NCBI GenBank assembly: GCA_964036045.1
Contig: OZ038379.1
Location: 108,392,025 to 108,456,024 of the forward strand
DNA length: 64,000 nt
Reading direction: 5' to 3'
Source: Eutreptiella sp. 'Long Island Sound 2002'
Lineage: Eukaryota > Euglenozoa > Euglenophyceae > Eutreptiales > Eutreptiaceae
This document shows positions 23,801 to 55,026 of the stretch, piece after piece (the first letter of the stretch is position 1; the number at the start of each line of letters is the position of its first letter). The position numbers and the translations under genes were made by a program. A model generated the notes under the pieces. That model worked only from the letters and a program-made list of their open reading frames with translations, searched no databases and had not been told where the DNA came from.

Positions 23801-23836
23801 TCGCAGCCGGAAGGGGCTGCGGGAAGCCAAGTCTAG
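20747..23836 (+). pseudogene. gag of gypsy element 3 (two frame changes, one amber stop)
   Basis: It starts at ATG 20747 within the LTR. Frame one carries CERRCRKACNLR (from 21073). Another frame (about 21361-22416) holds a coiled coil, roughly 21650-21810. The first frame returns (22109 on) with the capsid core from about 22420 to 23000 and is stopped by TAG at 23072. Past the stop it continues with FARMSLDKI, NPPLSFREY and a zinc-knuckle-like CWVC...H-x-H-x-H motif (23480-23525), then a Gly/Lys-rich basic tail and stop at 23836. Matching blocks in element 2 (ISARMSCDEI, NPPLSFREF) show the amber codon lies inside gag rather than at its end. Gag overlaps pol by 89 nt. Confidence 0.8.
20833..20850 (+). 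other. Primer-binding site of gypsy element 3
   Basis: TGGTAGCAGAGG directly follows the LTR, one or two bases different from the classic initiator-Met site. Confidence 0.8.
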
Positions 23837-26800
23837 TGGATCCCCCACGGGAGTGGGACCTCGGAGGTCTCTCCTCCGAAAATCAGTGGGATCCCAGAGA
23901 AAGCGAAGGCACATCGGCCTGCCGAAGAAGGCTCCAGAAGAGCCAAAACCACTGAGCCTCGCCACTCCCAACCCCTGGAGCGCCCTGCCAAGGGAAGTAC
24001 ATGTGGGTACGGGACATGGCAAGAAGGAAGGAGCAACCACAGAGAGCCCCGTGGACGGGCAGGACCAACCCAAGATCTACACCATCCGTGACCATATCCT
24101 TGAAGTCCTGATGCACCCGGATGTGCTAGAGTCGCATGCCGTGAGAGTCGTCCATACACCTCATGGCGACGAGCGGCAGTTGCACTTGAAGGTGTGTGTA
24201 CGGTGCGGACGAGAGGAGAAGGTGGTGGATGTGTTGGTGGATACGGGTGCCCAGGTGAGCCTGGTCCGGAGAGGGTTGTTCAAGGAGGAATTCTTGCAGC
24301 CCGGCCGGAGACCGGTCCGCCTGAAGGTCGCCAACGGAGAGATTATGGGTGGTGGCACCCATGAGGCCACTATCAGTATGGAATTCTCGGAGCATGAGCG
24401 CTTGAACCGCCCTGATTTGGCGAAGAGAAGCACTCTATCCGGGAACTTCTATGTGGCCGACATTACTGATTGGGATATGATCATGGGGTATGACTTCATG
24501 GTGGCAAACGCCATTGGAGCCCTTCCCCATTGTGCAACGCTGGTCCGGGAGGATGATGAATGCCTTACATGGCTGTCCACGGACTATGCATGCGGATCAT
24601 CCCAATGGAATGCAGAGGAAGAGGATCGAATCGTCCAAGCGGTGCAAGCTGTGGGTGCCAAGTCCAGAGGAGACCGCGGAGTTCAGCTCACGGAGTATGG
24701 AATGGCGCCGCAGGTGTATGCCAGGATGATCCAGACGCTGGGGGCCGAAGCGCCCGAGACGGACGTCTTTGCTTCCCGGGATGCCCCACTTCTGAGGAAG
24801 TGTAGGCGGCACTGGCATCGAGGAGACTCAGCCTGGCACCGGCATTGGGGTTTGAAGGAGTGGGGACCCATGTATTGGCATGGATCCCTGGACAATACCA
24901 GACGTACGGTGGAGAAGATCATCGCGGATAGGGCGAAGGGGATCCTGGTCATAACCGGCATAGGATCCACCCCATGTCCGCTGGAGGGTCTCAAGTCGAC
25001 GCTGGACTCCATCACCCTGAACGAGATGTCATTCGGGCCAGAGGAGGAGTTGTTCATCGACGCCAAGGGTGTATCAATGCCCTCCCCGGGTCAAGCGTGG
25101 GGTACCAAGGCTTTCCTGTTGGATGGGGCGCAAGCCCGGCCGACGGGTGATGAGGCATTCATCCGTAGGGTGGAGGCGGTGCCCATGAAGGTCATGTTTG
25201 AGCCCAAGGAGGGGACGGATCAGCCTATTGATGGCATTGACGTCCTGTCCCACGCCGAGATCGACGACGTCGTCAACTACATGCGGATGGGGATGCACGA
25301 CCGTGTGGCAGCCAAGAAGAGGCGGGCCATGGTCACATCTCCGCATTGGTGGGATGACAAGATGTTGGTCACCGGCAAGTACGAGAAGGACGAGTTCGTG
25401 GCGAGGGTCATGGATCACATCGCGGACCAATACGATGGTCCGGTTGGGTCGGACCCACCGACATGGGATTTTCCAAGAATGGGTGCCGATAGCGACAGTC
25501 ACCAGCCCGATGCCGCAAATTTCCGAAGATTATCGGTGGGAAGAGCTCCCCACGACGATGAAGACGGCATATCGGACGAGGAGAAGTCGGAATCGGACCC
25601 AGAAGAGGCCTATACCGCAGTGCGGTCGGTTGTATCTATACCGAAGCAAGCGGCTGAAGAGGCCCAGGAGAACCCGAAGGTCGCCGAGCTGAAGGAGAGG
25701 CTGATCAATGCCTATCCGCGGCTATTCAGTGGCGTCGCCAACAAGAACCCTCCAGATCGTGGGAGGTTTGGCACAGCGAAGATCAAGCTGAAGCCGAACC
25801 CCAAGATCTATCGTCATCGGGAGTACCAACTTCAGGGCGATCGGGCCGAGGCCATGAAGAAGCTGTTGGCCGAGTTCATTGAGCGGGGATGGATCGAACC
25901 CTCCGACAGTGAGTGGGCCAGCCCAGCCTTCATCGTGCCCAAGAAGGAGAAGGGCGAGTGGAGATTGGTGGTTGATTACAGAGGTTTGAACGAGCAGACC
26001 GAGCACGACTCGTACTCGCTTCCCCTGATCGACTCCATCCTCCAAAAACAACAGAAAAAGCGGATCTTCACGGTGTTGGACCTGAAACAAGGTTATCACC
26101 AGATGCCGCTAGACCCGGACTCCAGGCCCTGTACAGCGATGTCGACGCCGCTGGGGCCCATGCAGTGGAAAGTGGTGCCTATGGGCGCCAAGAATGGCAA
26201 CGCCGCTTTCCAGCGCATGATGGAGGACCTACTCGGTCCTGTCCGGGACTGTGCCCATCCCTTCGTGGATGACATCATCATCGGGTCCGGCACGGAGAAC
26301 ATGACTGAGGACGAGCTCATCGACGCGCATGAGAAGGATCTGCGCCGAGTGCTCAGCGAGTTGGACAAGCACAACATGGTGTGCAAGCCCACCAAAGCCT
26401 CACTCTTCGTGAAGGAAGTGGAGTTCGCGGGTCACGTGGTTTGTCATGGGCAACGCCGTCCCATGCCTGGGAAGCTGGCGTCCCTGTACCACTGGGAGAA
26501 GCCCCAGACCATCAGCGAACTCCGGTCCTTCATGGGGTTCTGCAATTACTATTTGGGCTATGTCCGGATGTATGCAGAACTCTCGGGGCCGCTGCACAAG
26601 ATGCTGCAGGTGGGGAAGTTCGATGGCCGGAAGGGGAGCAAGAAGAAGCTTGCCTGGACCCCTGAGGCCGAAGATGCGTTCAGCCGCCTGAAGGAGCGAC
26701 TCCTGGGGCGTCTGGGACTATTCTTGGTGGACCCGGACAAGGGATTCGTGCTGCGGACGGACGCCTCGGACTATGCTGTAGGGGCAGTCCTCGAGCAGAT

Positions 26801-28901
26801 CCGGGACGACGGGTCACACGTACCCGTGGCGTTTTGGAGTCGGATCCTGGCCGAGGGCCAACGCCGCACCTGGACCGCGAGGGAGAAGGAGACGTACGCC
26901 ATTGTTTGTGCGCTCAGGAAGTGGTCTGGCCACATCAGATTGCAACCGGTGGTGGTTTGCACGGACCATCAGTCCTTGCAGAGCTGGCACAAGGAGCACG
27001 TCGACACCCCCACGGGACCGGCGGCAAGGAGGGCCCGATGGCATGAGACGTTCGCCAAGTTCGACCTCAGCGTCGTATACGTCCCGGGGAAGAACAACAC
27101 TGTGGCAGATTGCCTCAGTCGATTGGCCTACCCCGCGGGCAAGGCTTGGATGGACATATCCAGCCATGGGGACGCCGAGGAAACCAAGGAGGCCAAGCCC
27201 ATCATCGAGATGGAGAAGGCCATGGAGCAAGAGGGGGTCAAGTGCTTTGTGGTGATGGCAAACCGTACGGACCTGGCCAAGTTCCGGGGTGCCCGCGTCC
27301 AAGCTATTCGAGAGGAAACCCTCGAGCAATGGATGGTGGCCCCTGTAGAGCTAGTCAGGTCGGTGCTCACAGAGGACTGGTCGGATGACTATGCAGCATC
27401 CGACCACTGGAGCAAGTACTGGAATGCCGTGCGCGCCCCGTCGGACGACGAATGGCCCGAGGGCTTAACCGAGGATGGGGACAACTTGTTCCTCAAGAAC
27501 ATGCTGGTGCCCGAGAACCGAGTGGAGGAGCTCATTGACGATTGGCACAACGCCCAGCTCATGCACCCTGGCCGAGACAAGATGCAGCAGGACCTGGACT
27601 GGCGTTTCAAGTTCCCTCCGGGGTACTACGCCATCCTGGATAGGTACTGTAGCGACTGTGCCGTGTGTCGGGCCACGAAGAGCCCCAACCACTCCACAGC
27701 GGGCAATCCGGTGTATACGGCTATACCGGAGGCCCCTATGCGGTCCGTGGCCATGGATGTGTTCGCCATGCCCGAGGTCACCGTGGAAGGAGAGACCTAT
27801 GATTGTGTCATCCTGGCGGTGGACAGGCACAGCGGGTATATCGTGGCAGTCCCGGGCAAGAAGTCCAAGAAGAAGGACAAGAAGGACAAGCATACAGTGG
27901 GGCTGCAGGCCAAGACCGTCGCTAATGCCATGATCAAGCATTGGCTGACGATTTTCGATGTCCCAGCTGTCATCTGCAGCGATCGGGGCAGTCAATTCGT
28001 GGGGACGTGGTTCAAGACGATGTGCAAGCACATGGGGATTTGGCAAGCCAAGACCGTGGCATACCACAGCCGGTCGAATGGCCGGGCTGAGGTGGCCGGG
28101 CAGCAGATGTTCGAAACGTTCCGCCAGCTGCACATCGACGAACCGGGCCGGAATTGGTACAATTCCCTGTGGAGGGTACCTCAAGCGTATCTCGACCTTC
28201 CGGGGCCCACTGGACTGTCGCCCCATTGTATCCAGTTCCTACGGGATCGAGTGTCACGCACTCTCCCGTGGTTGAACCATGGCAAAGTGGCCTGGGATGC
28301 GAACGCCATGATGGCTGAGGCGGACGACACGGCGGCCAAGGTGTGCAAGGCACTTCAGGACGAGCATGACAAGAGGGCCAAGTACTTCAAGCAGGGAAAA
28401 GTCCAGAAGTATGCTCTCCAAGACACCGTGTGGGTAGAGCGGCACCACAAGGATGTCCTGTCCAGGCATCGGCAGGCGTCTTGGTATGTGCCGGGGGTAA
28501 TCGTGCGGAAGGTCGGGCAGGATGTGTATGCGGTTCGTGTGGGGGATAACAAGATCCTGGACCGCGACCATACCCAGCTTCGTCCCCGAGCACCAGACCC
28601 CAGCGGACGTCACGTCACCTTCGAGTTCACACCCGGCGATGTGGACTCGGACGACGAGGGTGAGGACGACGACTTCACCGCGGAGAAGATCCTGGCGGAC
28701 AAGCCGGACCCGGGGACGCCTGGGGGGAGGCTTTATAAAGTCCGATGGAAGGGATTCGCCGCCTCCAGAGATTCGTGGGAACCTCCGAGCAGTTTCGTGC
28801 CGAGGTATACCACGGTCTGGATGGACTATCTGAAGAAAAAGAATATTTCTTTGGATGTCAAGGACGTGTTGGTCCATTTGGTGGCTGCAGTAGCACCGTA
28901 A
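23748..28901 (+). CDS. pol: Pol polyprotein of gypsy element 3, uninterrupted
   Basis: The frame is open from 23748 to TAA 28901 and is entered from gag by a +1 shift within the 89-nt overlap; no clear own start codon is seen. Residues are counted from 23778. Protease VDTGAQVSLV has Asp at residue 155. A Dam-like block (DVFAS, about 330-420) follows. RT has WRLVVDYRGLN, FTVLDLKQGYHQMPL and FVDD at 829-832. RNase H runs from RTDASDYAVGA (about 993) to NTVADCLSRLAYPA. Integrase has H1257, a CxxC, and catalytic D1327, D1402, E1438 with the classic 35-residue spacing. A chromodomain (about 1633-1690) reads KVRWKGF...SWEPPSSF. Every catalytic residue inspected is present, so this may encode active enzymes. 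Confidence 0.95.
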   Translation, partial: GRWRNSKPSNVVDKVLADRSRKGLREAKSSGSPTGVGPRRSLLRKSVGSQRKRRHIGLPKKAPEEPKPLSLATPNPWSALPREVHVGTGHGKKEGATTESPVDGQDQPKIYTIRDHILEVLMHPDVLESHAVRVVHTPHGDERQLHLKVCVRCGREEKVVDVLVDTGAQVSLVRRGLFKEEFLQPGRRPVRLKVANGEIMGGGTHEATISMEFSEHERLNRPDLAKRSTLSGNFYVADITDWDMIMGYDFMVANAIGALPHCATLVREDDECLTWLSTDYACGSSQWNAEEEDRIVQAVQAVGAKSRGDRGVQLTEYGMAPQVYARMIQTLGAEAPETDVFASRDAPLLRKCRRHWHRGDSAWHRHWGLKEWGPMYWHGSLDNTRRTVEKIIADRAKGILVITGIGSTPCPLEGLKSTLDSITLNEMSFGPEEELFIDAKGVSMPSPGQAWGTKAFLLDGAQARPTGDEAFIRRVEAVPMKVMFEPKEGTDQPIDGIDVLSHAEIDDVVNYMRMGMHDRVAAKKRRAMVTSPHWWDDKMLVTGKYEKDEFVARVMDHIADQYDGPVGSDPPTWDFPRMGADSDSHQPDAANFRRLSVGRAPHDDEDGISDEEKSESDPEEAYTAVRSVVSIPKQAAEEAQENPKVAELKERLINAYPRLFSGVANKNPPDRGRFGTAKIKLKPNPKIYRHREYQLQGDRAEAMKKLLAEFIERGWIEPSDSEWASPAFIVPKKEKGEWRLVVDYRGLNEQTEHDSYSLPLIDSILQKQQKKRIFTVLDLKQGYHQMPLDPDSRPCTAMSTPLGPMQWKVVPMGAKNGNAAFQRMMEDLLGPVRDCAHPFVDDIIIGSGTENMTEDELIDAHEKDLRRVLSELDKHNMVCKPTKASLFVKEVEFAGHVVCHGQRRPMPGKLASLYHWEKPQTISELRSFMGFCNYYLGYVRMYAELSGPLHKMLQVGKFDGRKGSKKKLAWTPEAEDAFSRLKERLLGRLGLFLVDPDKGFVLRTDASDYAVGAVLEQIRDDGSHVPVAFWSRILAEGQRRTWTAREKETYAIVCALRKWSGHIRLQPVVVCTDHQSLQSWHKEHVDTPTGPAARRARWHETFAKFDLSVVYVPGKNNTVADCLSRLAYPAGKAWMDISSHGDAEETKEAKPIIEMEKAMEQEGVKCFVVMANRTDLAKFRGARVQAIREETLEQWMVAPVELVRSVLTEDWSDDYAASDHWSKYWNAVRAPSDDEWPEGLTEDGDNLFLKNMLVPENRVEELIDDWHNAQLMHPGRDKMQQDLDWRFKFPPGYYAILDRYCSDCAVCRATKSPNHSTAGNPVYTAIPEAPMRSVAMDVFAMPEVTVEGETYDCVILAVDRHSGYIVAVPGKKSKKKDKKDKHTVGLQAKTVANAMIKHWLTIFDVPAVICSDRGSQFVGTWFKTMCKHMGIWQAKTVAYHSRSNGRAEVAGQQMFETFRQLHIDEPGRNWYNSLWRVPQAYLDLPGPTGLSPHCIQFLRDRVSRTLPWLNHGKVAWDANAMMAEADDTAAKVCKALQDEHDKRAKYFKQGKVQKYALQDTVWVERHHKDVLSRHRQASWYVPGVIVRKVGQDVYAVRVGDNKILDRDHTQLRPRAPDPSGRHVTFEFTPGDVDSDDEGEDDDFTAEKILADKPDPGTPGGRLYKVRWKGFAASRDSWEPPSSFVPRYTTVWMDYLKKKNISLDVKDVLVHLVAAVAP

Positions 28902-29295: not shown

Positions 29296-31659
29296 TGAAG
29301 CCGGTTCGGACCCCTGTGGCCATCTTGGGGTCACTTGGGGTGTGTATCTATGTGCCGGCAAGCCGCCATTGGCCGATATCATACTCTCCCATCCACCTGA
29401 CCTAATCCGATGTGATAGTGTGATAGGTTTGGCCATTCCAGCTATGAGCGGCCATATTCAGTACCGAGGCACCGCCAGCGGAGATTTATATATCGGAATA
29501 TCAGGAATCAACAGGGTTTTTTTATCATAATGTTTCCGTAATTTTTCAGCCTTCTGTTCTAATGGTCAATGTATCGGCGACTGTCAGTTGGCTCGCGATT
29601 TTGCGGTAACCTAATGGTTAACTGTTATATACAGATATTTTGGCGGAAACCCCGATGAAGGGTCAGATTTCATCAGTAAAGGGTTCGTTGCTTCCGCAAT
29701 TTTCATATTATACACTCGCAAAATTAATCCGATTTTTTCAGACTTTCAGAATCGGATTTTCGACTTCGACATCGCCGCACTTGATATGACGAATCTCCAG
29801 TGGTCCGACATTTTTTCCGAACACGAATCAGCCTTCCTTTTGTTATGCCCTTCATTTGTCTTGGAGATATAGTCGAAACAAAAGTGATTCGTGAGGCCAC
29901 TTTGAAAGGTCATATCTCCGGCTCACCGCGAGTAGTCCCAATTTCGAGAATTGGGTTGGAACCGCATTGGTCTCAACTTAATTTAGGAAGCATCAAACGC
30001 CTTTGTTGTGTACACATGCCTGGTATAGCAAGGGGAATGGTCAAGAGGGTAGAAAGTGATATATAACTCTTGGACCGTGCGACCAAATATTTTAATGCGA
30101 CTTTCGAGTGTACCGCATGAGTGTTGGGGTTGCATAGCAACTTTCCTTGGGTTCCTACGTATTTTTAACGTGAAGTTATGTCCATGGAGGGTCATGGCAT
30201 ATCATGGTGGGAGCTACTTTTGAGGGTATGTGTTATATGCATGGTATGTGCTTCGATATGCTCACGCCCATGTTATATATCTCCGTTTGTAGGAAGATAT
30301 ATGGAGTCATACGTGGTAAGGGCTTCGCCCATGTCCCAATGGTGAACTCCATAGCGCTGAACTAAGTCTACCGCTCATATAGTGCATGTGGGAGGGCTTA
30401 CGGAGCGACCCACAAGTGCCAATATGAATTTTCCCATTTTCATGGTGCGTGTTGGGAGGAGGTTCGAAGGTGTCCTCATGCGTCCATATGGGGATCCAAG
30501 TGGGGGGATTGTTTGCAAATGGTCCGAAGCAATTGTGTTTTGAGTCATAGGTTGACACCATGGGTGAGCGAAGTTATATACTATTGTAATTATCTTGAAT
30601 TTAGCATTATTTGCATGTTTTTGACCTCATTTTATGCTCATTTTTGTGTTTTATGTGCTCGACTGGTCGGCTAACAGTAAAGTGCCTAGAGATCTGTGAA
30701 CTATGGTATGTTGCTTAAATGTTGGCATATGCTTCGGTGTTCTACCTCACCATATGCCGGATTACATGGTCACTTTGGCTTGGCACACGAGGCCTCACAA
30801 AATTAGGTCTCAAACGCATGAGCTGACTTGTGAAGCATGTCATGTACATAACCGGAGGGGTTTCAGAGCCAATGATGGGATATTCTTGGGCATGGACCTT
30901 TATTCTATATCACCCTTGTATACTACTTTCCGGTTTGACACATGCATGGAGCATTTGAATATTTGCCGTATGCATTTTTGAGTATATAATTGAATTTTGG
31001 GCATTATGGTGTGATTTGCCTGATTTTGCCATGTTGTGAGGTCATCTTCATGGGGCAGTTCTCCAAGCCCATTCAACCCCAAGTCCATCCAAGGTTATGT
31101 CAGGGTAGGGCATGGTCCTGAGTGCCACTCTAGGCCATGACACGCCACCTCCCCTATTGGGCTAAAATTTAGAAGCTTGGGACTAAACACATTTTTGGGG
31201 TTTGTGTAGTGACTTGTGACACATGGCATTCAGCCATCTCATTTGACCTGGTTCAGGGCAATATGTTGGTGAGTTAAGGGAAGGTCTTGAGTCCAGGGAA
31301 TGAGGGGTTTATGGCTGTGAATGTGTATGTTTACCTCTTTCCCCAACTTTGCTTTATTTGTGTTCATATGCCAATTTCAGGGCTTTCCTCTTTGGTGCAA
31401 TTCTTGTACATGCCCGCCACCGTGAGACGACCGGTGTGCTGAACGGAAGCCCGCAGCGTGTATTGGATTGTGGATTGGGTTACCGCTGTACTTGTGGGAT
31501 CTGGTTGCTGTTCAGGGTTGAAGCAGGATTGTATTTTCTATATTTTTGGATTTTGGACCCTGCAGTTTGAGAAATGCAACCATTGATCCGGAGCAAATCA
31601 GCAGGGATTACAGGCGGAAGGGGCACAGCAGGGGCCGGTCCTGGTAGGGACCTTCTTTA
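29296..31659 (+). repeat. 3' LTR of gypsy element 3 (2,364 bp)
   Basis: Partner of 18476-20832, ending CTTTA before the GCAA duplication. Confidence 0.93.
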
Positions 31660-31663
31660 GCAA
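31660..31663. repeat. Target-site duplication GCAA, right of element 3
   Basis: Copy of 18472-18475. Confidence 0.88.
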
Positions 31664-32565
31664 GAAGGAACGTGGCCCGGGATGTCAAACGGCACTCCCT
31701 GCGGAACGCTCTCCTCATCACCGTCACGGGCGATCGCGAGAATACCGCGATGGGGCGCCTTGATGAGTGTGACGTGAGCGGCCAGACCATCCGTCTGCAG
31801 GCCATCTCGGCGCGGATGAGCTGCGACGAAATCCTGGAGTGGGTTGGAGAGGAGGTGCTCAAGGAGTACCGGAACCTCCACCACACCCGCGGGTTGGGGC
31901 CCGGCGACCGCGACGTCAACTACGTTGGCGAGGGGCCTGGCGGGGAAGCTGCCATGGACCCAGCGGGAGCCGATGGCGGTGAGGCTCTCGACGACAATGA
32001 CGACGACGATGAGCCCGCCGAGATGGCCGTTTGTGCCTTCGTCCCCAACAACCTGAACGCGGGAAGCAACCGGGGAAGCTGGAAGCCCCTGCAGCCGGGT
32101 TGGAAGAAGAAGGAGAAGAAGGACCCCCGCCGCATTGGCAACCCTCCGCTGTCCTTTCGGGAGTTCATACGAGCTCACCCTCAGGGCTGTTTCGTGTGTT
32201 ATGGGAGGAAGCAAGGCTTCAACCATGACCACCGAACATGCCCCATCCACCAGGCCGACACGGAGGCCTGCAAGAAGGCGCACGGGTTGAAGAAGCGTGC
32301 ACCCGCGGGCATCCAGGAGACCAAGGTGGTGGTCGACAAGGACGAGCTCTCCAAGCTGATGTCGGTGGGGACCGAGTTAGCCAAGGAGATCCAGGAGATC
32401 AACAGGAACTGGGTCCCCAGGTCGGACAACAAGAACAGGGAGAACAACGAGAACGACAAGAACAAGGACAAGGACAAGAAGACTAGGAATAGGGGAAAGA
32501 AGAAGGGTGTCAACGAGGTTGATGCGGAGGAGAACACCCCTACTTCCACAACGGACGCCCCCTAG
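31664..32565 (+). pseudogene. gag C-terminal part of gypsy element 2 (nucleocapsid)
   Basis: It continues the capsid frame cut at 18475. The blocks LQAISARMSCDEI and DPRRIGNPPLSFREF match element 3 gag. The motif CFVCYGRKQGFNHDHRTC (32188-32241) is a CxxC...H-x-H zinc-binding candidate replacing the CCHC knuckle usual in retroelements. A basic Asn/Lys-rich tail (about 32400-32510) follows. It ends in TAG 32563; pol continues in the same frame. Confidence 0.85.
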
Positions 32566-33990
32566 CGGAGCCCCTGCAGCCAAGGGCCTCAGCTAGGGCG
32601 GTCGCAGGATGGTGTCGTGGGAAGCGCCACACCATCCCAGTCGGGAGACAAAAGGCACAAAGGGATTGCCGGGGGCGGAAGGCCCGGTCCGGCACCCAAC
32701 AGTCGCGGTGGCGGAGTGAGGGCAAGTGAAGGCACGAACCCTTGCACCCGTCCATCCTTCGCGACTAAGAATGTATTTGATGTGCTTCAAGATCTATCCG
32801 AGAGTATCGGAGGATCACCCGGACCGCAGCTGGATGCTGCAGATGGGCAGCCTGAGCCCATTGTCCACGACCTGCACCAGTCGCTTGTTGAGCTTCTGGA
32901 ACGGCCGGAGATCCTGAGCTTGCACGCCGTGCGCCCAGTGGGGCGTGAGCGGCAGTTGCACCTTAAGGTCCGTGCCTTATGCGGGGAAGTGGGGAAGGTC
33001 TTCGACGTGTTGGTCGACACGGGCGCTCAGGTCAGCTTGGTCAAGGCTGGCCTACTTCCGCCAGAGTGTTTGACCGACAGTCGGAAACCTGTCAGGCTGA
33101 AGGTGGCGAACGGCCAGTACATGGTGGGAGGCACGAAGGAAACGGCCATTGGGCTGCAGTTCGTGAACCACCGTGAGCTGAGCCGCCCGGACCTCGGCAA
33201 GGAAATCCTCCTGCAAGGTCGCTTCTACGAGGCCGAGATGGACTGGGACATGATCGTTGGGTACGACTTCATGATGGAGACGGACGCCGGCGTTCTCCCG
33301 GCCCAGGCCTCAATGACCCTGTACCAGGACCACCAGCTCTCGTGGCTTTCGTCACCTGAGCACCATGTGGAATGCCAATGGATCCACCCGGAACGCAATC
33401 AGCTTGAAGTGGCCGCGCTGGGCACTGAGCCGACTGGGCCAGCAAACCAGGAGTACGGCATAATGCCGGAAGTGGCGAGCCGAGTGGTTGCGGACCTGGG
33501 AGCTTCGGATCTGGCCCTGGATGCGTTCTCTTCAGGAACCTCCGCCCATCTTCGGGTTTGTCAGAAGTACTGGAGCGCCCAGGAATCCGCGTGGAAGAAG
33601 CACTGGGGTCCGCATCAGGGTTTGATGTGGATCCATTGCCCCCGATGGGACATTCCAAGGGCGATAGCAAAGATTCGCAAGGACCGCTCCAAGGCAGTGC
33701 TGGTTGTTCCTATGGGATGCACCGAGGAGGAAAGCACCCGACATTGGGTGGTCTCATTGACCAACATGACCTTAAACAAGGTCGTCCTACCGGCTGGAGA
33801 GAGTGTCTATCAGGGCGCTAAGGGACAGCCCATGCCACCCCAGAGATGGCCAACGGAATTCCACTCTGTGCATGGGGGCCTTGATCAGGCCGACGCCACG
33901 GACTTCTTGTGTGTCAACCGCATCATAGCAGAGCCCTGGCGGCAATGCTTTGCGGTTTCCCCTGTTGAGATCGGAGAATCAGAAGACCCC
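32566..33990 (+). pseudogene. Protease and Dam-like domain of gypsy element 2 pol
   Basis: It is in frame with gag after a single TAG. The protease motif VDTGAQVSLV has its Asp at 33016, with the second lobe MIVGYDFM near 33250. A block homologous to the element 3 insert follows (about 33450-33830): EVASRVVADLGA, LALDAFSS, W-rich spacer, and AVLVVPMG. The NPPF box seen in element 1 is replaced by IHCPRWD, so any methyltransferase activity is probably lost. A one-base shift near 33975 moves the sequence PLTEEELDLVQ into the next frame. Confidence 0.85.
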
Positions 33991-34545
33991 TCACAGAAGA
34001 GGAGTTGGATCTGGTTCAGGGGTATATGGATCAGCCCTTTCACGACTGGGGAAGCCAGCGTGAGGGCAAAGGCCAGGACAAAGCCTGGTGGGAAGTGGAC
34101 TCGATCGTGTCCGGTTCCTATGATGGGAATACCTTCGTGCAGAGGGTGCTGGACCACATGTCCAGCCAGGACGAGCCAATTGGCGGGAACCCACCCACCT
34201 ACGGCGATCTATTCCGAGGCAAGACCAGAGATGGCCCTTTGGGCCACCTGGGAAGACCACCTGAGCCGAAACCGAGTGGGGTCGCTACCCCTCAAGTAAG
34301 CTCCGTGGTCCAGGTGCCCGGAAAAGCCAAGGCAGAGTCCGATGATTGCCCCAAGATCCAGGCATTGAGGGCCAGGCTGAAGCAGAAGTATGGTGGTACC
34401 TTCTTCAGCGGAAAACCTGTGTTTCCCCCACCGTTGCGTGGACCGTATGGCGAGGCCAAGAAACGACTGAAGCAGGACCCCCGTGTGTATCGGCACCGGC
34501 AGTTTGCCCTAAGGGGCGAGAGGAAGGAAGCCATGGAGAAGATCC
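33991..34545 (+). pseudogene. Linker and RT N-terminus of gypsy element 2, cut by the TIR transposon
   Basis: Frame 34005 on reads YMDQPFHDW...WWEVDSIVSGSYDGNTFVQRVLDHM, matching YMRMGMHDR...HWWDDKMLVTGKYEKDEFVARVMDHI in element 3. It reaches the RT entry block (RVYRHRQFALRGERKEAMEKI) and is interrupted at 34545. It resumes in frame at 39054. Confidence 0.85.
34538..34545. repeat. Target-site duplication GAAGATCC, left of the 4.5-kb TIR transposon
   Basis: Eight bases repeated exactly at 39046-39053. Eight-bp duplications are typical of hAT and P superfamilies. Confidence 0.93.
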
Positions 34546-34559
34546 GGGTGGTGGGAGAT

Positions 34560-34812
34560 GGCCGCTCCTGACAGGAGCCGCCCCTGGCTCCTGCTCCTGA
34601 GGAGCACCGACCCTGGCTCCTGAGGAGCTCCGACCCTGGAGTGCTCCTCAGGAGCACCGACCCTGGCTCCTGAGGAGCACCGACCCTGAGGGGGCTCCTG
34701 AGGAGCACCGACCCTGGCTCCTCAGGAGCCAAAGCTCCTGAGGAGCACCGACCCTGCTCCTGAGGAGCAAGTTGGCTCCTGAGGAGCACCGACCCTGGCT
34801 CCTGAGGAGCCA
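34560..34812. repeat. Left subterminal palindrome array of the TIR transposon
   Basis: About ten tandem units of roughly 23-25 bp, each with the self-complementary GCTCCTGAGGAGC or a close variant plus ACCGACCCTGG. The array extends the terminal inverted repeat; the right end has the counterpart. A degenerate unit recurs near 35238-35275. Confidence 0.9.
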
Positions 34813-37574
34813 AAACAGAAAAAGGTTGTTTTTTCACTTTTAGCTGAGTACTTTGCATATTTTCTACAAAGGGTGCCCATTGTGGCTGCAAAGTTACCAA
34901 CAACTTGGATAAAAGTCGCATTTTTGGACTCTTACAGGCTTTCCTAATGTCTACATCATTGATCTGAAGAACACCACCTGTGCTCCTTGGGAACGATTTT
35001 GCTTCCGAACAAAAGCGGCCCTCAGGAACCAAAACAAAAAGACTTATTCCCAATTTTTGATTACTTATGTGTACTTTTTCGTACACGGTGCCCATCGTGC
35101 ATGCAAGATTGCCAACAAGGCTAATAAAAGTTGCATTTTTGTTAGCTTTGGAGGTTCAACTAGAGGTTTCCTCCAAAATTTTGTCAGTGAACGAAGTCGT
35201 TTGTTTGAATCACTAATCTTGGGAAGAACCACTATTGCTCCTGAAGAGCAATTTTGCTCCGGAGGAGCACCGTCCGTGTCTTTCGGGGAGCTAAAACAAA
35301 CCTAAGTGCTTTTCACTTCGTGCTTGTTGTTTCGCATCATTTCAACATCCGCTCCGCATCATTCTTGGAACATTACCAAAAACCCAAAAGTTGCATTGCG
35401 CTTTAGAAAGTGTACTAGACATTTGTTTCCTTTGCTTCAATGTTTGCTTTGTGACCAACGTCAATTAACAAAATACTTCGTCTCAAAAAGGTGAATTTGA
35501 AGCTCTTATAGCCATGCAACTTGGGTGTAATTTTGTTTTGCAAACAACATCATTGCCTCTACTTTGAAACCGCAATGAAAACTATGTTTTTGCTTTGATT
35601 GGGCATTTTTAGTCTTTAACCTCTTGTGCTATCTTTTTCAATCAACCTTTTTTCCTAATGCCTTAGCCAAAGAACCATGCAGCAAGCACTTAAACCTAAA
35701 TACATGTGTATAACAATTGACATTTTGTATTGGCACCAATCACATAGAAACCAACACCACCTTTTCTACCATCAATTCCATTTGTTGCGGGAGAAACCAC
35801 AAAATTGCACTTCATCTGCCTTACTTTAGAAGATTCGCATTCATTGAACTTTCGGACCCCACCAGAATACAATTGTTCCATACAGCATCATTGCCCGTTG
35901 TGTTGCATCAGACTTTGGATGAAAATGATGCATCAAGCAGTACGCAAAATGCACAAAAAATCCTATCCCGAAATTCACAAAGTAAATAATCAACCAAAAA
36001 TGAATACTAATTCGTAGTCCAATTGGCGCATCAATAACTCAAGTAACACATCAAATTGCAATGGAGCCTTACGGTCCAAAGATATGAAAATTGGTACCAT
36101 ACAGCATATGTATTGTACGGTATCGGCATGGTATCCATACCATACAGTGCTGCAATATCTTGTATGGTATGGCCCAACACTCTTGTATTCACTACTTTGT
36201 CCCGCCACAAAAAAAAATTGGCTTTTTCACTCCAAACAAATATATCGCACAATGCCTTGGCTGTCAGTGCATCCGCAGAGTGGTCCGATACATGGTTGTT
36301 GTCAATTCTTGGCAGCTGATGAACAATTGCTATCATTTTAATGAACTACTAATCGTGGGAAATTAATGACTGGACACTGGACAAAGGGCTGGCCATGGTG
36401 TCTTTTTTTTTATGCTCCATAGGAAAGGCACTATACCTTGCATCTTGGCAGTACCTATGTGGTACCCGTGACCAATGGTGTTCAGATGTGTAATGCAAAG
36501 GCATCAACCAATCAAAAATGACTGCAGTGGGTTCCCTGGGCGGCATTGGCGAGCACTTCACTGTGCCATGTCCTGATGCAAAAGAATGATGGTTGCACGA
36601 TTTGGCCAAATCAGCTTGCCATAATTGCGAAATTCTGCTGCCACCGTCACACTGCTTGCTAATTGCTCCATGTTTGCTGTTTTTAACAACCTTTAACCTA
36701 GCCTGGCAACTTGCCACAGAGGCCCAGCATGCCACGCATGCAATTGAACTCAAATTCTACCCTCCACCACCTGCTTCGCCAGTGCACTAATCACAAGTTT
36801 GGCTATTTACTGGTTCGATTTGAGGCTGGCCGACTAAGCTCAGGGCACAACACTCTCAGCAGCCCATGGTTGATTGCTAGTTCTCTCATAGGGCTTACGA
36901 GAACATTGCGAGTTACTCAGGATTCTTGCCCTCAGTGGTGGTACTAGCAGCGTGTCCACCTCCATATCGGGACCATTGCTTGCTAATTACGGTCCCACTG
37001 CAATTCTGTCTTCCACCACCGCCGCCGCCAGTGCTCTGATCTGTTGATTGCCTTAATCCCTTGACCCGGTCCAGTGAACTCAACGCACAACACTTGCAAA
37101 TGCCCGCAATTGATCGCTGGTTCCCGCATTTGGTTCAGTCTGCAAAATGAATCTGCCTTGTTGGTTTTCACCCTCGCCAATGGTTTTAACCTCTGAAAAT
37201 AATGAAATCAACAAGCACACGGCGGAAATCGCGCACGGTCAGAAACCATTCAGCACCTCAATGTCCACGTCCCACGAAGCAAATGCTTTCTCACCCCACT
37301 GGGGGACTCCTCACAAGTGCAAACGCATCAACCCCCCGGGGTCGGGCGTACTGATTCAATGCGCTCTCTGTCTTGGAATTGTGCGCATCCTGGATCTTCA
37401 AGAACAAATCTCCTACGAAGTGTGTTCAGGTGCGCGTCAACGGGCCCTGGTCACTATTCAACCTACCTTGCCCACCTTGCCCACAACCCGATGCATTGAA
37501 GGCCGCTTCAGGCGGTACCATTCAGGACAAAAGTATCACAGTATCACGTTCAGTTGCCACGGTTCGGCAGTCAC
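34813..37574. other. AT-rich interior of the TIR transposon, no gene recognised
   Basis: Short ORFs only. Between about 36600 and 37060 three degenerate copies of a segment with CCACCACC...CCAGTGC and CAATT repeat at irregular spacing. GTATGGTA-type palindromic motifs lie near 36097-36170. I see no transposase, BED finger or dimerisation domain. Confidence 0.5.
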
Positions 37575-38211
37575 CTTTGCAGACAGCATCGATCATCTTG
37601 TCACCGATCTTGCACTCGGAGCCGAACTTGGTTTTCACAAGGGTCATATTCTCCTTCGTTTGGGAATCGAATTGAGGATTAACTGCAGGAGTGGCGTGCA
37701 TTATGATGGAGTGTCCTCTGCAGCGCTTGGTGCAACGCTTTCCGTCAGCGAGCACTTTTGCCAGTGAGGGCACGTAGTGCAGATTTTTGCGGGAGCAATT
37801 GTGCAGTGTCCAGTAGAGACATACCAATCAGACAATTGCCGAAAACCCACAAATCATTTCTGATGATGTGGGGCTTTGTATCGATTTTCTGCAGCCAAAA
37901 GAAGAGGAGAGTTGGCAGCGCCTCACCGCTGTGTCGTCAAGCATCTTTGCATTTGTTGTGCACAGTGCACAACTTGTGCAGTGGATCTTGCACAACTTGA
38001 AGTCCACGCAACTACCCCCAGACTACGACAAGAACTCAATGATCGAAAACTACACAAAAAAGATCAAAACGCATCGAAGGGCGCACAGGTTTGCCCCCCC
38101 CCGCTGAAATACCTTCCTCTTCAATTCTTCACCGATCTTGTCAGTTATCTGGTCGAGGATGTACTGCACGTGCTTTCCGCCCTTGAACGTCCAAATGCTG
38201 TTGACGAAGCT
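37575..38211 (-). pseudogene. Captured DNA topoisomerase II fragment, three exons
   Basis: Read on the minus strand. Exon A (38211-38113) gives SFVNSIWTFKGGKHVQYI, then LDQITDKIGEELKRK. Exon B (37888-37825) gives KIDTKPHIIRNDLWVFGNCLI. Exon C (37682-37575) gives NPQFDSQTKENMTL, then KFGSECKIGDKMIDAVCK. These are the consecutive blocks FVNSIxTxKGGxHVxY, KxHxIKNxxWxFVNCLI and ENPxFDSQTKENMTL of eukaryotic type II topoisomerases, in the ATPase/transducer to TOPRIM stretch. Introns of 224 bp (37889-38112) and 142 bp (37683-37824) have GT...AG ends and phases 0 and 1 that keep the frame. About 90 of more than 1,200 residues are present. A TGA stands just upstream of exon A, and neither start nor catalytic Tyr region is found, so it cannot make topoisomerase. 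Confidence 0.92.
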
Positions 38212-38751
38212 TCAGTGCTGAAACTGTGACCATCGTTGTCTTCGATTTCAAGGGTAGAGTGACGGCTTGGGACCAGTTATTTACCCAGCAATCTGGTCAT
38301 CCTGTTGTCAACCATTGGTCACCAACGACTTACAACTAATCGTGGACAGGCGTAATTTGGAACACGGCGAAAGCTTCTAATGATGGATGAGTGAGTTGGA
38401 TGTACGAATGAACATTTGTGTATGGTTCAGCTTTGAATGGGGACGACAGTTCATTTTCTCCTGCTGCCTGAATCAGGGCGCTTCGCGACATACAAATCGC
38501 GATACCCTGTTTTGGTGTGTTCTGGTTCAACAGCCTTTTTTTTTCCTTTTCTAAGCTTGTGAGAGGTCGTTTCCAAAGTAGAAAATATCAGCGTAATCAA
38601 TTATGGCGCATACGCTGGGGAACACCAACAATTGAAATTTCATGACAACCATTCCACTTCTAAATGCATACATCATGGAAGACACCATACATAGACCATA
38701 GTTGACTGTCAAATTTCGATTTTTTTTCCCGAACCCCTTCTTCCTGCGGAG
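38212..38751. other. Interior of the TIR transposon upstream of the topoisomerase fragment
   Basis: Contains W-S-Q-F-Q-H then TGA immediately before exon A, which may be decayed topoisomerase coding sequence. Nothing else is recognised. Confidence 0.4.
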
Positions 38752-39030
38752 CAATGCCAACCTTTGACCCTAGCTCCTGAGGAGCCACGCCCCTAGCTCT
38801 GGAGGAGCAATGACCCTGGCTCCTTAGGAGCAAAATGCTTAACAAGACAACCGCCGCTCCTGAGAATCGCCGACCCTGGAGGTGGTACAGGGTCGGTGCT
38901 CCTGAGGAGCATTTATCAGGGTCGGTGCTCCTGAGGAGCAGCACCAGGGTCGGTGCTCCGGAGGAGCCAGGGTCGGTGCTCCTGAGGAGCTGGCTCCTCA
39001 GGAGCAGGGTCGGCGATTCTCAGGAGCGGC
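38752..39030. repeat. Right subterminal palindrome array of the TIR transposon
   Basis: Tandem and inverted units of GCTCCTGAGGAGC with the spacer CAGGGTCGGT, the complement of the left array. Unit order and number differ from the left end, so the long inverted repeat is imperfect. Confidence 0.9.
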
Positions 39031-39045
39031 CATCTCCCACCTACC

Positions 39046-39053
39046 GAAGATCC
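39046..39053. repeat. Target-site duplication GAAGATCC, right of the TIR transposon
   Basis: Exact copy of 34538-34545. Confidence 0.93.
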
Positions 39054-40123
39054 TCCGCGACTTCGTCGAGAGAGGCTGGCTTGAGCCGTGCCACTCCGAG
39101 TGGGCCTCTCCGTGCTTCGTCGTCCCCAAGAAGGTGGCCGGTGAGTGGCGGCTCGTGGTCGACTACCGCGGCCTAAACGCCCAAACGCAGCATGACAGCT
39201 ATACGCTGCCCCTCATCGAGGACATGCTGCAAAAACCACACTGGCGGAGGATCTTCACGGTGATTGACCTGAAACATGGTTATCATCAGATGCCTCTCGC
39301 CGAGGTGTCCCGTGCCTGCACAGCCATGAGCACCCCACTTGGACCTCTCCAGTGGAAGGTGATGCCCATGGGCGTTACCAACGGCAATGCGGCTTTTAAG
39401 CCGATGCTGGAGAACCTGCTTGAGCCGGTGCGTGACTGTGCAGACCCCTTCGTGGACGACGTGATCATCGCGTCCGGGGACCCCAGTATGAGCTACGAGG
39501 AGCTCCTGGAGGCACATGAGAGGGACGTCACCTGAGTGCTGCACCTTCTGGTTCGGCACAAACTCACGGGCAGCAGTGACAAGGCCACCATTGCGGTAAG
39601 CGAGGTGGTCTCCGCTGGCCACGTAGTTGGGAACGGGCAGCGGAAGCCCATACCTGGCAAGGTGGCTGCGATCAAGCACTGGGAAAAGCCCAAAACGGTC
39701 TCTGAGCTACGGGCGTACTTGGGGTTCTGCAACTACTACTCGGGGTATATCAAGATGTATGCCGAGTATGCGGCCCCCATGACGACCATGCTCAAGGGCA
39801 ACCGAGAGGAGACCAAGAAGGGGTCCAAGAAGGCTCTGGTCTGGAATGATGAGTCCAACCGTGCCTTTGAGGGGATGAAGCAGGCGCTGCTATCCGCAGT
39901 GGGTCTGCACCTCGTGGATCCTGACCGAGGGTTCGTCCTGTGCACCGACGCTTCCGACTACGCCGTTGGCGCTGTGTTGGAACAAGTGCTTGACGATGGG
40001 AGGCACGTGCCCGTGGCCTTCTGGAGCCGTGTCCTGGCGGAAGGCCAGAGCGGAGGTGGACGCACCGAGAAAAGGAGGCGTATGCCATCGTCATGGCTCT
40101 CAGGAAATGGGCTGGGTACATAG
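39054..40123 (+). pseudogene. RT and start of RNase H of gypsy element 2
   Basis: Resumes the RT with RDFVERGWLEP, then WRLVVDYRGLN, FTVIDLKHGYHQMPL, and FVDD at 39449-39460. A TGA at 39533 stands where element 3 has an Arg (HEKDLRRVL), so it is likely a mutated CGA. The same frame then continues through WEKPKTVSELRAYLGFCNYY and the RNase H start CTDASDYAVGAVLEQ. A one-base shift near 40057 ends it. Confidence 0.92.
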
Positions 40124-41355
40124 CCCTCCATCCCGTCACCGTCTGCACCGACCATCAGAGTCTGCAGTCGTGGCACAAAGAGCACGTGGACACCCCCTCT
40201 GGTCCCGCCTCCCGACGGGCAAGATGGCATGAGACCTTGGCCAAGTTCGACCTCACGGTTGTGTATGTTCCTGGCAAGGACAACACCGTGGCGGACTCTC
40301 TCAGTAGGTGGGCCTATCCCGCCAGCAAGGGCATGACAGATGTGTCTGCCCATGGCGATGAGGCTGAGACCGCTGAGGCCAAGAAAATCATTGAAATGGA
40401 GCGCCTGATGGAGGAGGAGGGTGTTAAATGCTTCGTCGTCATGGCTGCAGATGCCCACCTCGGAACGAGGATGGGCAGAGCGGTCAGAGTACTCGCCCAT
40501 GATGGAGCTGAGTCCGACAAGCACCTCTTCCCTGAATCTTGCCTCCAGGACGACTGGACCGACAACTACGCTAAGTCTGAGGCCTTTGAGGCCGAATATA
40601 GGGCTGTGACCGACCCTGATGACGGGCAGAAGTGGCCAAAGGGGGTGACTGAGGAAGATGGCAAGCTCTACCGGAATGGTAAGCTGCTGGTCCCAGAGTC
40701 CCGAGTGCTCGAGCTATGTGAAGCTTGGCACCACCACATGATGCACCCAGGGGTCAAGAAGCAAGCCCTGGACATGCAGCGCCGGTTCGAGATCGACCAG
40801 ATCGGTCTCTACACCGCCATCAAGAAGGTCAGGAAGGGTTGCTCGGTCTGTCAGGCCTGCAACCCCGATAACCGGAACGTCAAGGGGGAAGCCCAATGGA
40901 CTCCGGTGCCTGACCAGCCCATGGAGAGCGTGGCCATGGACGTCTTCTCCATGCCCGAAGTGCACATTGGCAAGGAGACCTTTGACTGTGTAGTCCTTTG
41001 TGTGGATCGCCACAGCGGCTACGTAGTAGCCGTTCCGGCACGCAAAGAGGGGTTGCTTGCCAAGGAAGTGGCAGTCATGATGATTCTTCATTGGCTGACC
41101 GTCTTTGACATCCCCCGCACCATTTGCAGTGACCCAGGGCCCCAGTTTACTGGTGGCTGGTTCAACGCCATGTGTTCCCTCATGGGAATACGTCATGCCA
41201 AGAGCGTCGCCTATCTCCGCCGGTCCAATGGCCGGGCTGAAGTGACTGGACAGCAGCTGTTCGAGAAGCTGCGCAAGATTCACATCACCAATCCACGTCG
41301 GACCCGTGGGGACTCTCCCCCAGACTGCGGCCTTGGGAACCCTGGGGTAGCCTGA
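40060..41355 (+). pseudogene. RNase H end and truncated integrase of gypsy element 2
   Basis: The frame begins at the conserved REKEAYAIV glutamate block, then VCTDHQSLQSW and NTVADSLSRWAYPA. Integrase has the HHCC finger ending CSVCQAC (about 40840) and catalytic Asp at 40939, Asp at 41131 and Glu at 41239 with 35 residues between the last two. Similarity to element 3 stops after FEKLRKIHIT (about 41290). The GPF/Y region and chromodomain are absent, so the 3' part of pol was deleted or replaced. Confidence 0.9.
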
Positions 41356-45325: not shown

Positions 45326-45705
45326 GCCAGGCCCAGTCTTGGCAGGCCTGCGCGCGCCTGCCCCGCTCAGCAACGGGCCCCGTCCTGCCTGACATTCATA
45401 CCATTACCCTGCTCAGCGTCGGCCCAGTCTTGTCAGGCCTGCACAACCCTGCCTGGCATCAGCACTAGGCCCAGTCTTGCCAGGCCTGCGTATATGACCT
45501 GCTCTGCGCCACGACCAGCTTTGACAGCCCTGCTGGCGATCGGCCGGCGCCTGGCGTGTTCAGCAACAGGACTTCTTGCCAGGCCTGCATGTGTCTGCCC
45601 TGGTCTGCACCAGGCGCCGTCCTGCCAGACTCGCATACCACCACCCTGATGGGTGCCGGGCCCAATCTTGCCAGGCCTGAGTATACCTGCCCGTGCCATG
45701 TCTTG
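45326..45705. repeat. 46-bp degenerate minisatellite
   Basis: About eight units with the core CCCAGTCTTGCCAGGCCTGC at roughly 45332, 45378, 45423, 45470, 45513, 45567, 45615 and 45661. It follows the end of the RT/RNase H ORF and precedes the LINE, and could be the 3' noncoding part of either. Confidence 0.85.
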
Positions 45706-45839
45706 TAGACGGGCACAGCTCAGAAAGCGTGCCTGACCGCGGGACCTCGGACCACAACGGCCTCGCACCGCTTCCGTCCTATAAATTTGCCTCCTCCTGC
45801 CCGGTTCTTCTTGTTTGCCCGGTTCTTCTTCACGAGAAT

Positions 45840-48800
45840 TTTCAAAACTCCGTTGCTGAGTGCTATAGCCGTTTTGTGGCCAGTTCAGACCACAAGGCGG
45901 TTATCGCTTCACTGTCCGCTAAGCCTACCAAACAGGGGAAGCGACTCAGAATTCCCACGGCTTTCCTCTCTTCGGAGGAAACCCTCCAACAACTACAGAC
46001 TGAATTGCAATCCATTGACACCGAAGGTTATTCCAAGTGGGCAGACGGTATGGAATGTATCAAAACAGCAGCTTTTTCTTATGAGAAGGCCAACAGAGCT
46101 ACAAGCATCACGGAATTACAATCTCTATTGATGGTTTCTTCCACACATCACCTTTCTGAGGAAGCCTGGCGCTACCTCAAGGATCACGGGTACACCCCCT
46201 CATCCGCGAAAGCGGCCTACCAAATTTTAGCAGCTCTGGCCGAACGGTCATACAGCGACCGTTCTGGGCAGCAGGCTCTAGATAAGCTTGAAACTACTCT
46301 ACACGACCCACACCATTTCCAACCATGGCGCCGCCGCCAAGAAATCTGGCGACTCACCAAGCAGCTACAGTTCAAACGAAAACTATACTCTTTGCGCAAT
46401 AGGTTTGGCCAGCTTCTGCCCGACCCTGAATCCATGGTCTCTGAAATTGTCACCTACTGGCAACAAACAATGAATTCCTCCGGAAAGTCCCAACCGGAGG
46501 TAGTGACTTACCTCGAAAAAATTTGTCATGGTAAAAACACAGCATTGATGGCAAAAATGCTGATACAACCGCTGTCACTGGACCTAGTGCACGCTGCGCT
46601 GGAGTCCTTGAACGGCACATCAGCGCCGGGAATCGATGGGGTCCAAGTATCCATCTACAAAACCTTTTCGGATTTCTTTTGCCCTATTATGCTCGACATT
46701 TACAGGGGCATTCTGTCCTCTAACACACTCAACAGTGATTGGTCACTGGCCCTCCTAAATCCCATTCCAAAGGGACTTGGGACTGCTTCGGTCCACAACT
46801 TGCGGCCCTTAGTTCTACAAAACACGTCACACAAATGGGTGGCAGCCATCCTGGCCCTGCAACTCAGAGATTACATTGACGCCCTCACCCCTATTCAACA
46901 ACGGGGTTTCATCAGGGGGCGATCAATTTTCACGAACCTCTGGCATACTTTTGGCTCTTGGAACTCCCCGGGGGACGCCCTGTTTTGCCCCATAGATTTC
47001 AAAAAGGCGTTTGACTCTGTTTCACACGAGTACACTCGCACGTTCCTGAACCTTATGCAACTACCAGACAGTCCAGTTTCCCTCTGCCTACTACTGTTTA
47101 CAGCACCGATCTGCGTGCTTGTTCGTGATCACATTTATGGTGACCACAAAATCTTTTCTTGCTCGGGGGTCCGATAAGGATGCCCCTTCTCACCATCTGT
47201 ATTTGCAATGCTCATTTCCCCCATTATCCATAAACTTATGGATTTGTCTGTCCACGTGCCAGTTCTGCTTTACGCAGATGATTTAATCATCATCATCGAC
47301 TGCGACCCTGCCACAGGAGTGCGGGTTTTCCTTTTCGTCTGGAGCAGGATTCAAGAATTCTCGGAAGTCACAGGCTTGTTCACAAACCTGGATAAGTTCA
47401 ACATTCTGCTCAAGGGGCAATGGGATTCCGTGCACAGGGTTCAACTCCTGAGCACAGGCCTCAAAATAGTCGAAAAATACAAGTATCTGGGTATTGTCCT
47501 TGGAGCTACAACAGCGGAAGAGGCCTATGGACCAGCATTAAGGAAAGCTATAGGACGTGCGGTTTCCAGGCAGGTGTGGTCCCTCCCGCTCGCTGATCGG
47601 GTGGAACTTCTCCAAAGCTGGATCCTCCCTCTGCTAGTCTACCCAGCCCGTGTTGTCTATCCCACCGACAACGTCATCGCAGCGGTTAAAACTATGTACC
47701 GGGCGCCCTTAAACTCAGCAATTGGGGCATAACGCTCCACATCCTGTCTCACAGCAAAGACCAGGGGGGATTGCAACTGGCCCCCCCTGACACCTTTTTG
47801 CTTTGGCGGTTTTCTACTATTTTTATCCGTCACAGCTACAAAGCTGAGGTCATTCCCAAATGTGTCACTGATTCCTATGAGCGTTTTGCCAATGAGTACA
47901 GCATAGTTACATCCCCGTCCATGCTCCACACTTTTCAAATGGGGAGCAATGTTGTTTGGCATAAAATGCCTTATCTCGCTTGGAGCGCTCGGGCATACTC
48001 ACTTGTCACCTCTAAAGCTACTTTCAACCGTCTCGAAGCACTATCGTACGACATCCCACTTTGGCATAAGAAACTGTTCTCCAAGTCTGCATCCCTCACG
48101 TACTTTTGCCCCCAGCTTATCCGGCAGGGGATCACTACGGTGGGAGATTTAATCACTGACAGCACACATATTTCGCAGATCGCGCCCACTTGGGCCCCCA
48201 TTTATCAACAGTGCGTATTTCATTATGACCCCTCGAATCCCAGCCAGGCACCCACGGCACCACCTCCCCGTCCTGTTCCGGGAGCGGATGTTTGGTCACA
48301 CTGGACCACGAAATCCATGGCCTTGTTTCTTTGCTCCTCTACCTCTCTTGCACCAAGGCAGCCGCCTGCGGTGTGGAAGGCCTTCAACTCTTTGAATGTT
48401 CTTGCACAACATAAAGACTTCATCAGACAATTGCTATGGCTCCGCCTTCCTGTGGGGGAGCGACAAAAGGAATGGAAGCCGGATGATGTGTGGTGCCCAA
48501 TTGACGGTGAGCTAGAAACAATTGACCACGCGCGCGCGGAGTGCTCCCTACTCAAAGCCGCCTTCAACACTATTGCAAAATGCCTTCCCACGGCCCGTGC
48601 TGAGGAATGTCCAACAGCCCTACTTTCTTCTTCCCTGCAGTTTTCTTTCCAGTGCCCGTCAGGCTTCCTGGCTTGGGCGACGGTATATGCCAACTGGCAA
48701 GTCCGACAAAAGAAAAAACATCAACGCCAATATGCTGCTACCTGGTCCCGCTTTGTTTCTATTTGGATAGCCACCTTGAAACTGTGGGCTACCTGTCCTT

Positions 48801-49705
48801 TGAATATTCCTATTTCCGATCACGACCTGCATCTTTTCATCAGAGCACTACAATCGCTACTCCATGATGGAGTGCTGCAACACCCCCACCTACGTGTCAC
48901 ACCCCCCACCCCCCCGCCCAGCAAAAAACAACAAAAAGAAACAGCGCGCCGACTGCGCAAACAACAACGGGGGGCGGAGCTGGAAGGAGTTTTCGACACC
49001 CTCACCGCGGACGGAAACACCCTAGTCTTCACAGTTGGGTCATCCGCCGAAACGGAAGGCGTGGGCCGGGTAGCAGGATATGGCATCTACGCGCATCCTG
49101 ACATCACCATTTCTGCATATGTCCCAGTTCACTTCCGACAAACAAACAACACGGCAGAACTCCTGGCCGTGATTCGAGCATTACAAATCTTTACTTTTGG
49201 TAAAATCGCAGTTTGCACGGATAGTGAGTACGTCTTCCTAGGAGCCACAGGCGCGGCACGCCGGTGGAAACTCAGGGGATGGACGGGAAGCAGTGGCCCG
49301 GTTTCTAATGTTCCCCTATGGGAACTTCTTCTTGACACCCTCAGCACACACACAGGCTCCATCAAGTTTATTAAAGTGCCGTCCCATGTGGACATCCTAG
49401 GGAACAACGAAGCGGACAGATTGGCAGACCATGGAAGGCTCTCCCACCCTAGGTGTCTGGTACTCAAGACTCCGTCACGTGATTTCACCGTGACCACTTA
49501 CACTCCCCCCATCAAGCGTCGGCGCAGGAACACTGATGCCGAGCTGGACTCGGTTGTGCAAGTTTTGAATTTTTCCCCCCACAAAGACGCGCCGGACAGT
49601 CAGGCTATGGACGCGTTCACGGATCTCTCCCGCAGGACTGACCCTGAACTACTCCAAGGCGATTGGTCCCCACCAGTGTCTGATTACAGTTCTCTTGAAT
49701 TTTGA
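45840..49705 (+). pseudogene. 5'-truncated LINE: endonuclease end, RT, RNase H
   Basis: The first recognisable motif is ASSDHKAV (about 45880), the final SDH block of an apurinic-type endonuclease, so most of that domain is missing, as in 5'-truncated LINEs. The RT has GIDGV, FRPL-like NLRPLVLQN, RGFIRGRSI, IDFKKAFDSV (about 47000) and YADD at 47271-47282. A TAA at 47175 replaces the Gln of the universal RQGCPLSP motif. A one-base shift near 47725 leads to the second frame, with a C-terminal WCP...HARAEC zinc-like motif (about 48500) and RNase H (about 49010-49440) with TAELLAVIRAL, VCTDSEYV and GNNEADRLAD. The first RNase H Asp is Val (TVGSS instead of TDGS). RNase H-bearing LINEs occur in several plant, algal and protist lineages. 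Confidence 0.92.
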
Positions 49706-51897: not shown

Positions 51898-51900
51898 TGG

Positions 51901-54578: not shown

Positions 54579-54626
54579 AAATACCCACAATACAGTCTAT
54601 GTTGTTCCTATCGCAAACGTCCTTAA

Positions 54627-54697
54627 CATAGTTGAGCGGTAAAACACTTGACTAACAACTCGACGACCTGAGTTCGATTCCCGTGCCAGTCTTCGTA
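54627..54697 (+). repeat. 71-bp tRNA-like direct repeat, copy 1
   Basis: A box TAGTTGAGCGG and B box AGTTCGATTCCC with a CTAACAA anticodon-loop-like stretch (AAC, Val-like). The anticodon and T stems pair poorly, and no acceptor stem forms in this copy. Identical to 54956-55026. Confidence 0.6.
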
Positions 54698-54955: not shown

Positions 54956-55026
54956 CATAGTTGAGCGGTAAAACACTTGACTAACAACTCGACGACCTGA
55001 GTTCGATTCCCGTGCCAGTCTTCGTA
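54956..55026 (+). repeat. 71-bp tRNA-like direct repeat, copy 2
   Basis: Identical to copy 1, 329 bp downstream. Here CTGGAGC just upstream can pair at six of seven positions with GTGCCAG near the 3' end, giving a plausible acceptor stem, so this copy may be the more complete one. Confidence 0.6.

Follow-up and report, generated by a model that had tools for sequence, protein, structure and literature searches.

A Pack-type DNA transposon of Eutreptiella carrying an intron-bearing piece of a topoisomerase II gene

The element at positions 34546–39045 of the window, the 64,000-nucleotide stretch of Eutreptiella sp. DNA analysed here, is very probably a non-autonomous Pack-type DNA transposon carrying a genomic piece of a topoisomerase II gene, whose family spread with this piece and was then internally deleted. 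The donor gene, the retained introns, the empty site, a long form of the element and a series of deletion derivatives are all found in one genome, and capture, amplification and decay can therefore be placed in order. The family also links a transposon bearing host-gene sequence to a large internal minisatellite. The features of the window copy and its insertion site are as follows.

34546–39045, no strand assigned: non-autonomous element with terminal inverted repeats, 4,500 bp, derived from a 15.6-kb family member by internal deletion
34538–34545, no strand assigned: left target-site duplication GAAGATCC, perfect, 8 bp
39046–39053, no strand assigned: right target-site duplication GAAGATCC, perfect, 8 bp
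34546–34810, plus strand: left terminal inverted repeat, an array of GCTCCTGAGGAGC-type palindromes with ACCGACCCTG spacers
38773–39045, minus strand: right terminal inverted repeat, a palindrome array matching the left end
33969–34545, plus strand: left portion of the host site, a Ty3/gypsy pol frame broken by the element
39046–41355, plus strand: right portion of the host site, continuation of the same gypsy pol
37338–38229, minus strand: captured topoisomerase II segment (93.4% identity across 914 alignment columns in copy L009)
38113–38209, minus strand: captured exon 1 (FVNSIWTFKGGKH...), 97 nt
37825–37888, minus strand: captured exon 2 (KIDTKPHIIRNDLWVFGNCLI), 64 nt
37575–37682, minus strand: captured exon 3 (VNPQFDSQTKENMTL...), 108 nt
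37352–37412, minus strand: captured exon 4 (GDLFLKIQDAHNSKTESALN), 61 nt, missed in the initial annotation
37338–37339, no strand assigned: internal deletion junction, where the window copy lacks ∼11.1 kb relative to the 15,600-bp form, with a 1-bp overlap

The initial annotation, made from the sequence alone, described a 4,500-bp element with terminal inverted repeats and a perfect duplication, and these borders are confirmed by the presence of GAAGATCC on both sides and of palindrome arrays at both ends. The ends, GGGTGGTGGG and GGTAGGTGGG, are built from short palindrome-bearing units with periods of 23–50 bp and can be aligned as inverted repeats over ∼158 bp at 82%. The 64-kb window contains 17 palindromes of the GCTCCTGAGGAGC type, and every one falls within the element, 16 of them no more than ∼270 bp from its ends, and the 19-base terminal motif (three or fewer mismatches) occurs twice in the window against 0.01 expected occurrences. 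Deleting the element together with one duplication in silico restores the Ty3/gypsy pol frame, which can be aligned with a related gypsy element (23748–28901) through the insertion point over 354 bases, gap-free and at 68%. This related element holds a single long frame that stays open for 1,717 aa; it and the gypsy element that serves as the insertion site (31648–41355) were recognized by alignment or by eye, and another Ty3/gypsy-type element is placed by Pfam at 6059–9523. The duplication had also been called hAT-like. Its length of 8 bp bears this out, although the likeness derives from that length alone: hAT termini start with YAG, and the GG-starting ends found here (GGGT/GGTA) speak against hAT.

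Within these ends, the window copy holds 892 bp of the 902 bp of topoisomerase II sequence matched in the longest copy, because its deletion cuts the inner end of the segment. Spliced exons 1–3 (89 aa) match topoisomerase 2-beta in the PDB (2e-26) and the Pfam family PF00204 (6.6e-15), so that the topoisomerase II identity first proposed for these exons holds, whereas the proposed number does not: there are four exons, and the three originally recognized are the first three. Splicing of the four minus-strand exons across three introns gives an open 109-aa frame, with GT/AG kept at every intron and the exon joins in frame and in order, as had been described. In-frame joins are also what favors a processed pseudogene, that is, a topoisomerase II cDNA inserted into an older transposon, but all three introns are present and aligned to those of the donor. 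This origin, whose probability is negligible, is rejected on the donor introns observed in the element; because these introns align, the captured material is genomic DNA and not cDNA.

A resident topoisomerase II gene, the existence of which the initial annotation had assumed, is present on contig C2; its exon/intron boundaries agree with those of the captured piece, and its introns are similar. Its positions 2,188,564–2,189,465 (minus strand, 902 bp) match the longest element copy at 93.4% over 914 columns with all three introns included (E 0.0), and exon lengths are identical in donor and element (97/64/108/61). Elsewhere in the two stretches of the C2 locus that were compared, 10.1 kb in total, matches to the element do not exceed 23 bp. 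Along the minus strand of C2 lie, in order, what are presumably ATPase-domain-like frames, the captured exons, a frame taken to be TOPRIM-like (CTLVLTEGDSAK) and later exons. A PF00521 profile search of the same genome returned 13 matches, nine of them in three intron-containing topoisomerase II loci (on C2, C17 and C1) and four elsewhere (one on C8, one on C1180 and two on C1973). The loci on C1 (8582378–8583881) and C17 (32184412–32185924) have nearly equal exon spacing and one PF00521 match each with a stop, and are either pseudogenes or paralogues. One of them, with C2 as its paralogue, might have been the direct donor, since three intron-containing loci exist and the comparison covered parts of C2; this is unlikely, though it deserves serious weight, given that C2 is already 93.4% identical and that its PF00521 matches, unlike those of the other two loci, are free of stops.

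The topoisomerase II sequence in the element could alternatively be functional cargo encoding a working protein or domain, as the open 109-aa spliced frame and the GT/AG borders kept at three introns would allow. The fragment nevertheless covers just a small inner portion of the ATPase/transducer region, and its residues 44 and 49 have changed from H and V in the donor to D and G (topoisomerase 2-beta in the PDB alignment has H and I at these positions). Among 21 copies, with gaps counted, exons 1–3 (16 of 269 columns variable) are as variable as introns 1–2 (18 of 366), which makes functional cargo highly improbable; upstream, 74 of 836 columns vary, and the last 237 bases hold 52 variable columns, to which the deleted copies add gap columns. 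With exons 1–3 varying as much as introns 1–2, the family gives no indication of purifying selection among its copies. Compared with the donor, the exons differ at 13 of 330 sites and the noncoding parts at 24 of 550, with 24 additional gap columns in the noncoding parts and none in the exons, and the changed codons comprise 4 synonymous and 8 replacement changes (NG86 dN 0.031, dS 0.068). A dN below dS without exon gaps could hint at weak constraint, a faint hint, since it comes from no more than 12 changed codons and the host branch is itself under constraint. The most probable status of the fragment is that of a passenger, which would have no protein function.

The family was surveyed with an 851-bp query from the topoisomerase part against the 2.28-Gb genome. 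Of 210 candidates 40 were scored, with matches at 98–100% identity, and the genome therefore has at least 40 copies of this part. The sample of 21 copies used for comparison, consisting of 20 fetched from the best matches plus the window copy, is biased toward young copies; divergence within it averages 0.94% and reaches a maximum of 3.51%, and the window copy departs from the majority sequence at 3 positions in 1,708 bp. These divergences place the capture before the recent spread, because the element is ∼4% divergent from the donor against a mean of 0.94% among the 21 copies of this young-biased sample. Both ends were seen in 8 of the 21 copies, and all eight are flanked by perfect 8-bp duplications that are all different; for the other 13, the fetched stretches (15.8 kb for 10 and 5.9 kb for 3) did not show the far end. 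Because the eight insertions occupy different sites and have separate duplications, an assembly artefact is rejected.

The eight delimited copies measure 15,600, 10,110, 7,185, 7,059, 4,500 (the window copy), 3,934, 3,300 and 3,007 bp, and seven of them, the window copy included, lack internal parts of the longest, a share that overstates the deleted fraction of the family, since short copies are likelier to show both ends in the fetched stretches. The seven shorter forms contain eight junctions, all distinct, with overlaps of 0–5 bp and, at one junction, 5 extra bases. The original statement that this element had captured a gene piece is accordingly right for the family, which carries the piece, and needs amending for the window copy, which, as a deletion derivative of the 15.6-kb form, does not itself represent the capture. 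In two further copies, each within a 15.8-kb stretch (L025 and L028), similarity to the longest copy is confined to 2.5–2.7 kb at the topoisomerase-side end, and because of this not every copy fits a picture of one long form plus deletions; these two may contain a nested insertion, a truncation or a different inner part.

The longest delimited copy, of 15,600 bp (L009/L029), contains a 61-bp minisatellite inside the transposon, present in both L009 and L029 as ∼102 units (∼6.2 kb) and bordered by a 723-bp direct repeat (99.7%) in an LTR-like layout. Translation of this copy in six frames, with stops as X, gave Pfam matches to topoisomerase II (6.4e-8) and CENP-S (3.5e-4), followed by weaker matches to zf-CCCH_6 (0.004 and 0.085), histone (0.16) and DUF5308 (0.19). 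Six-frame Pfam analysis of the non-repeat part of this one copy, except its last 0.4 kb, showed no transposase, in agreement with the earlier remark that none is visible, and a hidden transposase in the longest copy is rejected on this result. A full topoisomerase II gene inside the ends of the longest copy is likewise rejected, for that copy, from the Pfam results and the single long blastn block against C2.

The CENP-S-like, histone-fold stretch lies on the plus strand (L029:6022–6102) in a region deleted from the window copy. Scored alone, it reaches 3.6e-6 and 27.7 bits against a Pfam cut-off of 28 bits, with histone next (8e-4), and against the PDB it places CENP-S chains at the top (0.011) and then many histones. 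Because it is preceded by a splice-acceptor-like TGCAG and followed by a donor-like AGGTCTCC (GGTCTC), the stretch is probably a second captured host exon, although a weaker case than the topoisomerase II part. A more far-reaching proposal is that the family is a giant Pack-type one, 15.6 kb long, in which pieces of two chromosome-maintenance genes, topoisomerase II and CENP-S, are stacked on the same strand about the 61-bp satellite. Chimeric or small RNAs from its transcripts could then act on the resident genes, and its copies could seed satellite arrays genome-wide; such a combination is improbable. The captured topoisomerase II piece might by itself be a selected antisense or small-RNA source that lowers topoisomerase II expression, as could be suggested by the many near-identical copies with homology to the resident gene. 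This is likewise improbable, as the piece is ∼4% diverged from the donor and mobility alone suffices to account for the copy number.

The history best consistent with these data is that of a mobile Pack-type element whose cargo is incidental to its spread. The 902-bp piece would have been acquired through template switching while an element that had broken or been excised was under repair, and a transposase from an unseen autonomous relative would cut in trans at the inverted repeats. Transposase supplied in this way would have multiplied the 15.6-kb form, and the shorter derivatives may have arisen by interrupted gap repair following excision.

By the definition used for plant Pack-TYPE elements (PMC8903248), the element is Pack-TYPE, a new example of a kind already known, and the Pack-type structure first read from the sequence is supported by a donor gene with introns, terminal inverted repeats, 8-bp duplications and no transposase found. 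With respect to what defines Pack-TYPE and Pack-TIR elements, host coding DNA lies between the inverted repeats and has an identifiable donor, inverted repeats and duplications accompany all eight delimited copies, and no transposase of its own is found in the one copy searched (L009/L029, non-repeat part except the last 0.4 kb). The plant elements are similarly non-autonomous, with inverted repeats, a superfamily-sized duplication and captured host coding DNA between the repeats; they were searched for between 300 and 15,000 bp, whereas the longest form here is 15.6 kb, has a 6.2-kb minisatellite and palindrome-array ends, and is not assigned to a superfamily. Multicopy Pack-TIRs of animals (PMC8277862) likewise carry host sequence, intronic sequence included, between inverted repeats and are amplified by transposition; one example described there has three derived copies, against at least 40 here, and the multicopy state fits this transposition-linked route. 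Among the titles listed by literature searches, none concerns Pack-type elements in a protist or alga, which does not prove that none exist.

Shortening of a longer element by internal deletion also characterizes the Ds-del derivatives of maize Ac (PMC3260210), although here even the longer element is, so far as observed, non-autonomous. Tetris foldback elements, as described in PMC4079207, share repeats within the inverted repeats, apparent non-autonomy and modular rearranged forms; their inverted repeats contain 220-bp repeats, whereas here palindrome-bearing units occupy the ends and the 61-bp array is separate and internal. Duplications of 8 bp are ascribed to hAT and Zisupton elements in PMC12730594, and MULEs are credited in PMC6446971 with duplications of 8–11 bp and often long inverted repeats. 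The 8-bp duplication fits Zisupton (KDZ), and together with the alignable ends it also agrees with MULEs; Pfam finds neither transposase in the non-repeat part of the longest copy, except its last 0.4 kb. One MULE-transposase-like frame occurs elsewhere in the window (51853–52746, plus strand; PF10551, 2.5e-5, 25 of 27.6 bits), with more open frames to 54191, and the terminal motif of the element is absent from this region (51853–54191).

Other features of the window include two near-identical tRNA-like stretches, seen by eye at ∼54626–54697 and 54957–55028 and ending in GACCTGAGTTCGATTCCCGTGCC, which are perhaps SINE heads because ARAGORN calls no tRNA in the window. A LINE-like element lies at 45681–49705 on the plus strand, with a reverse transcriptase (PF00078, 7.1e-8) followed by an RNase H (PF00075, 7.8e-24).
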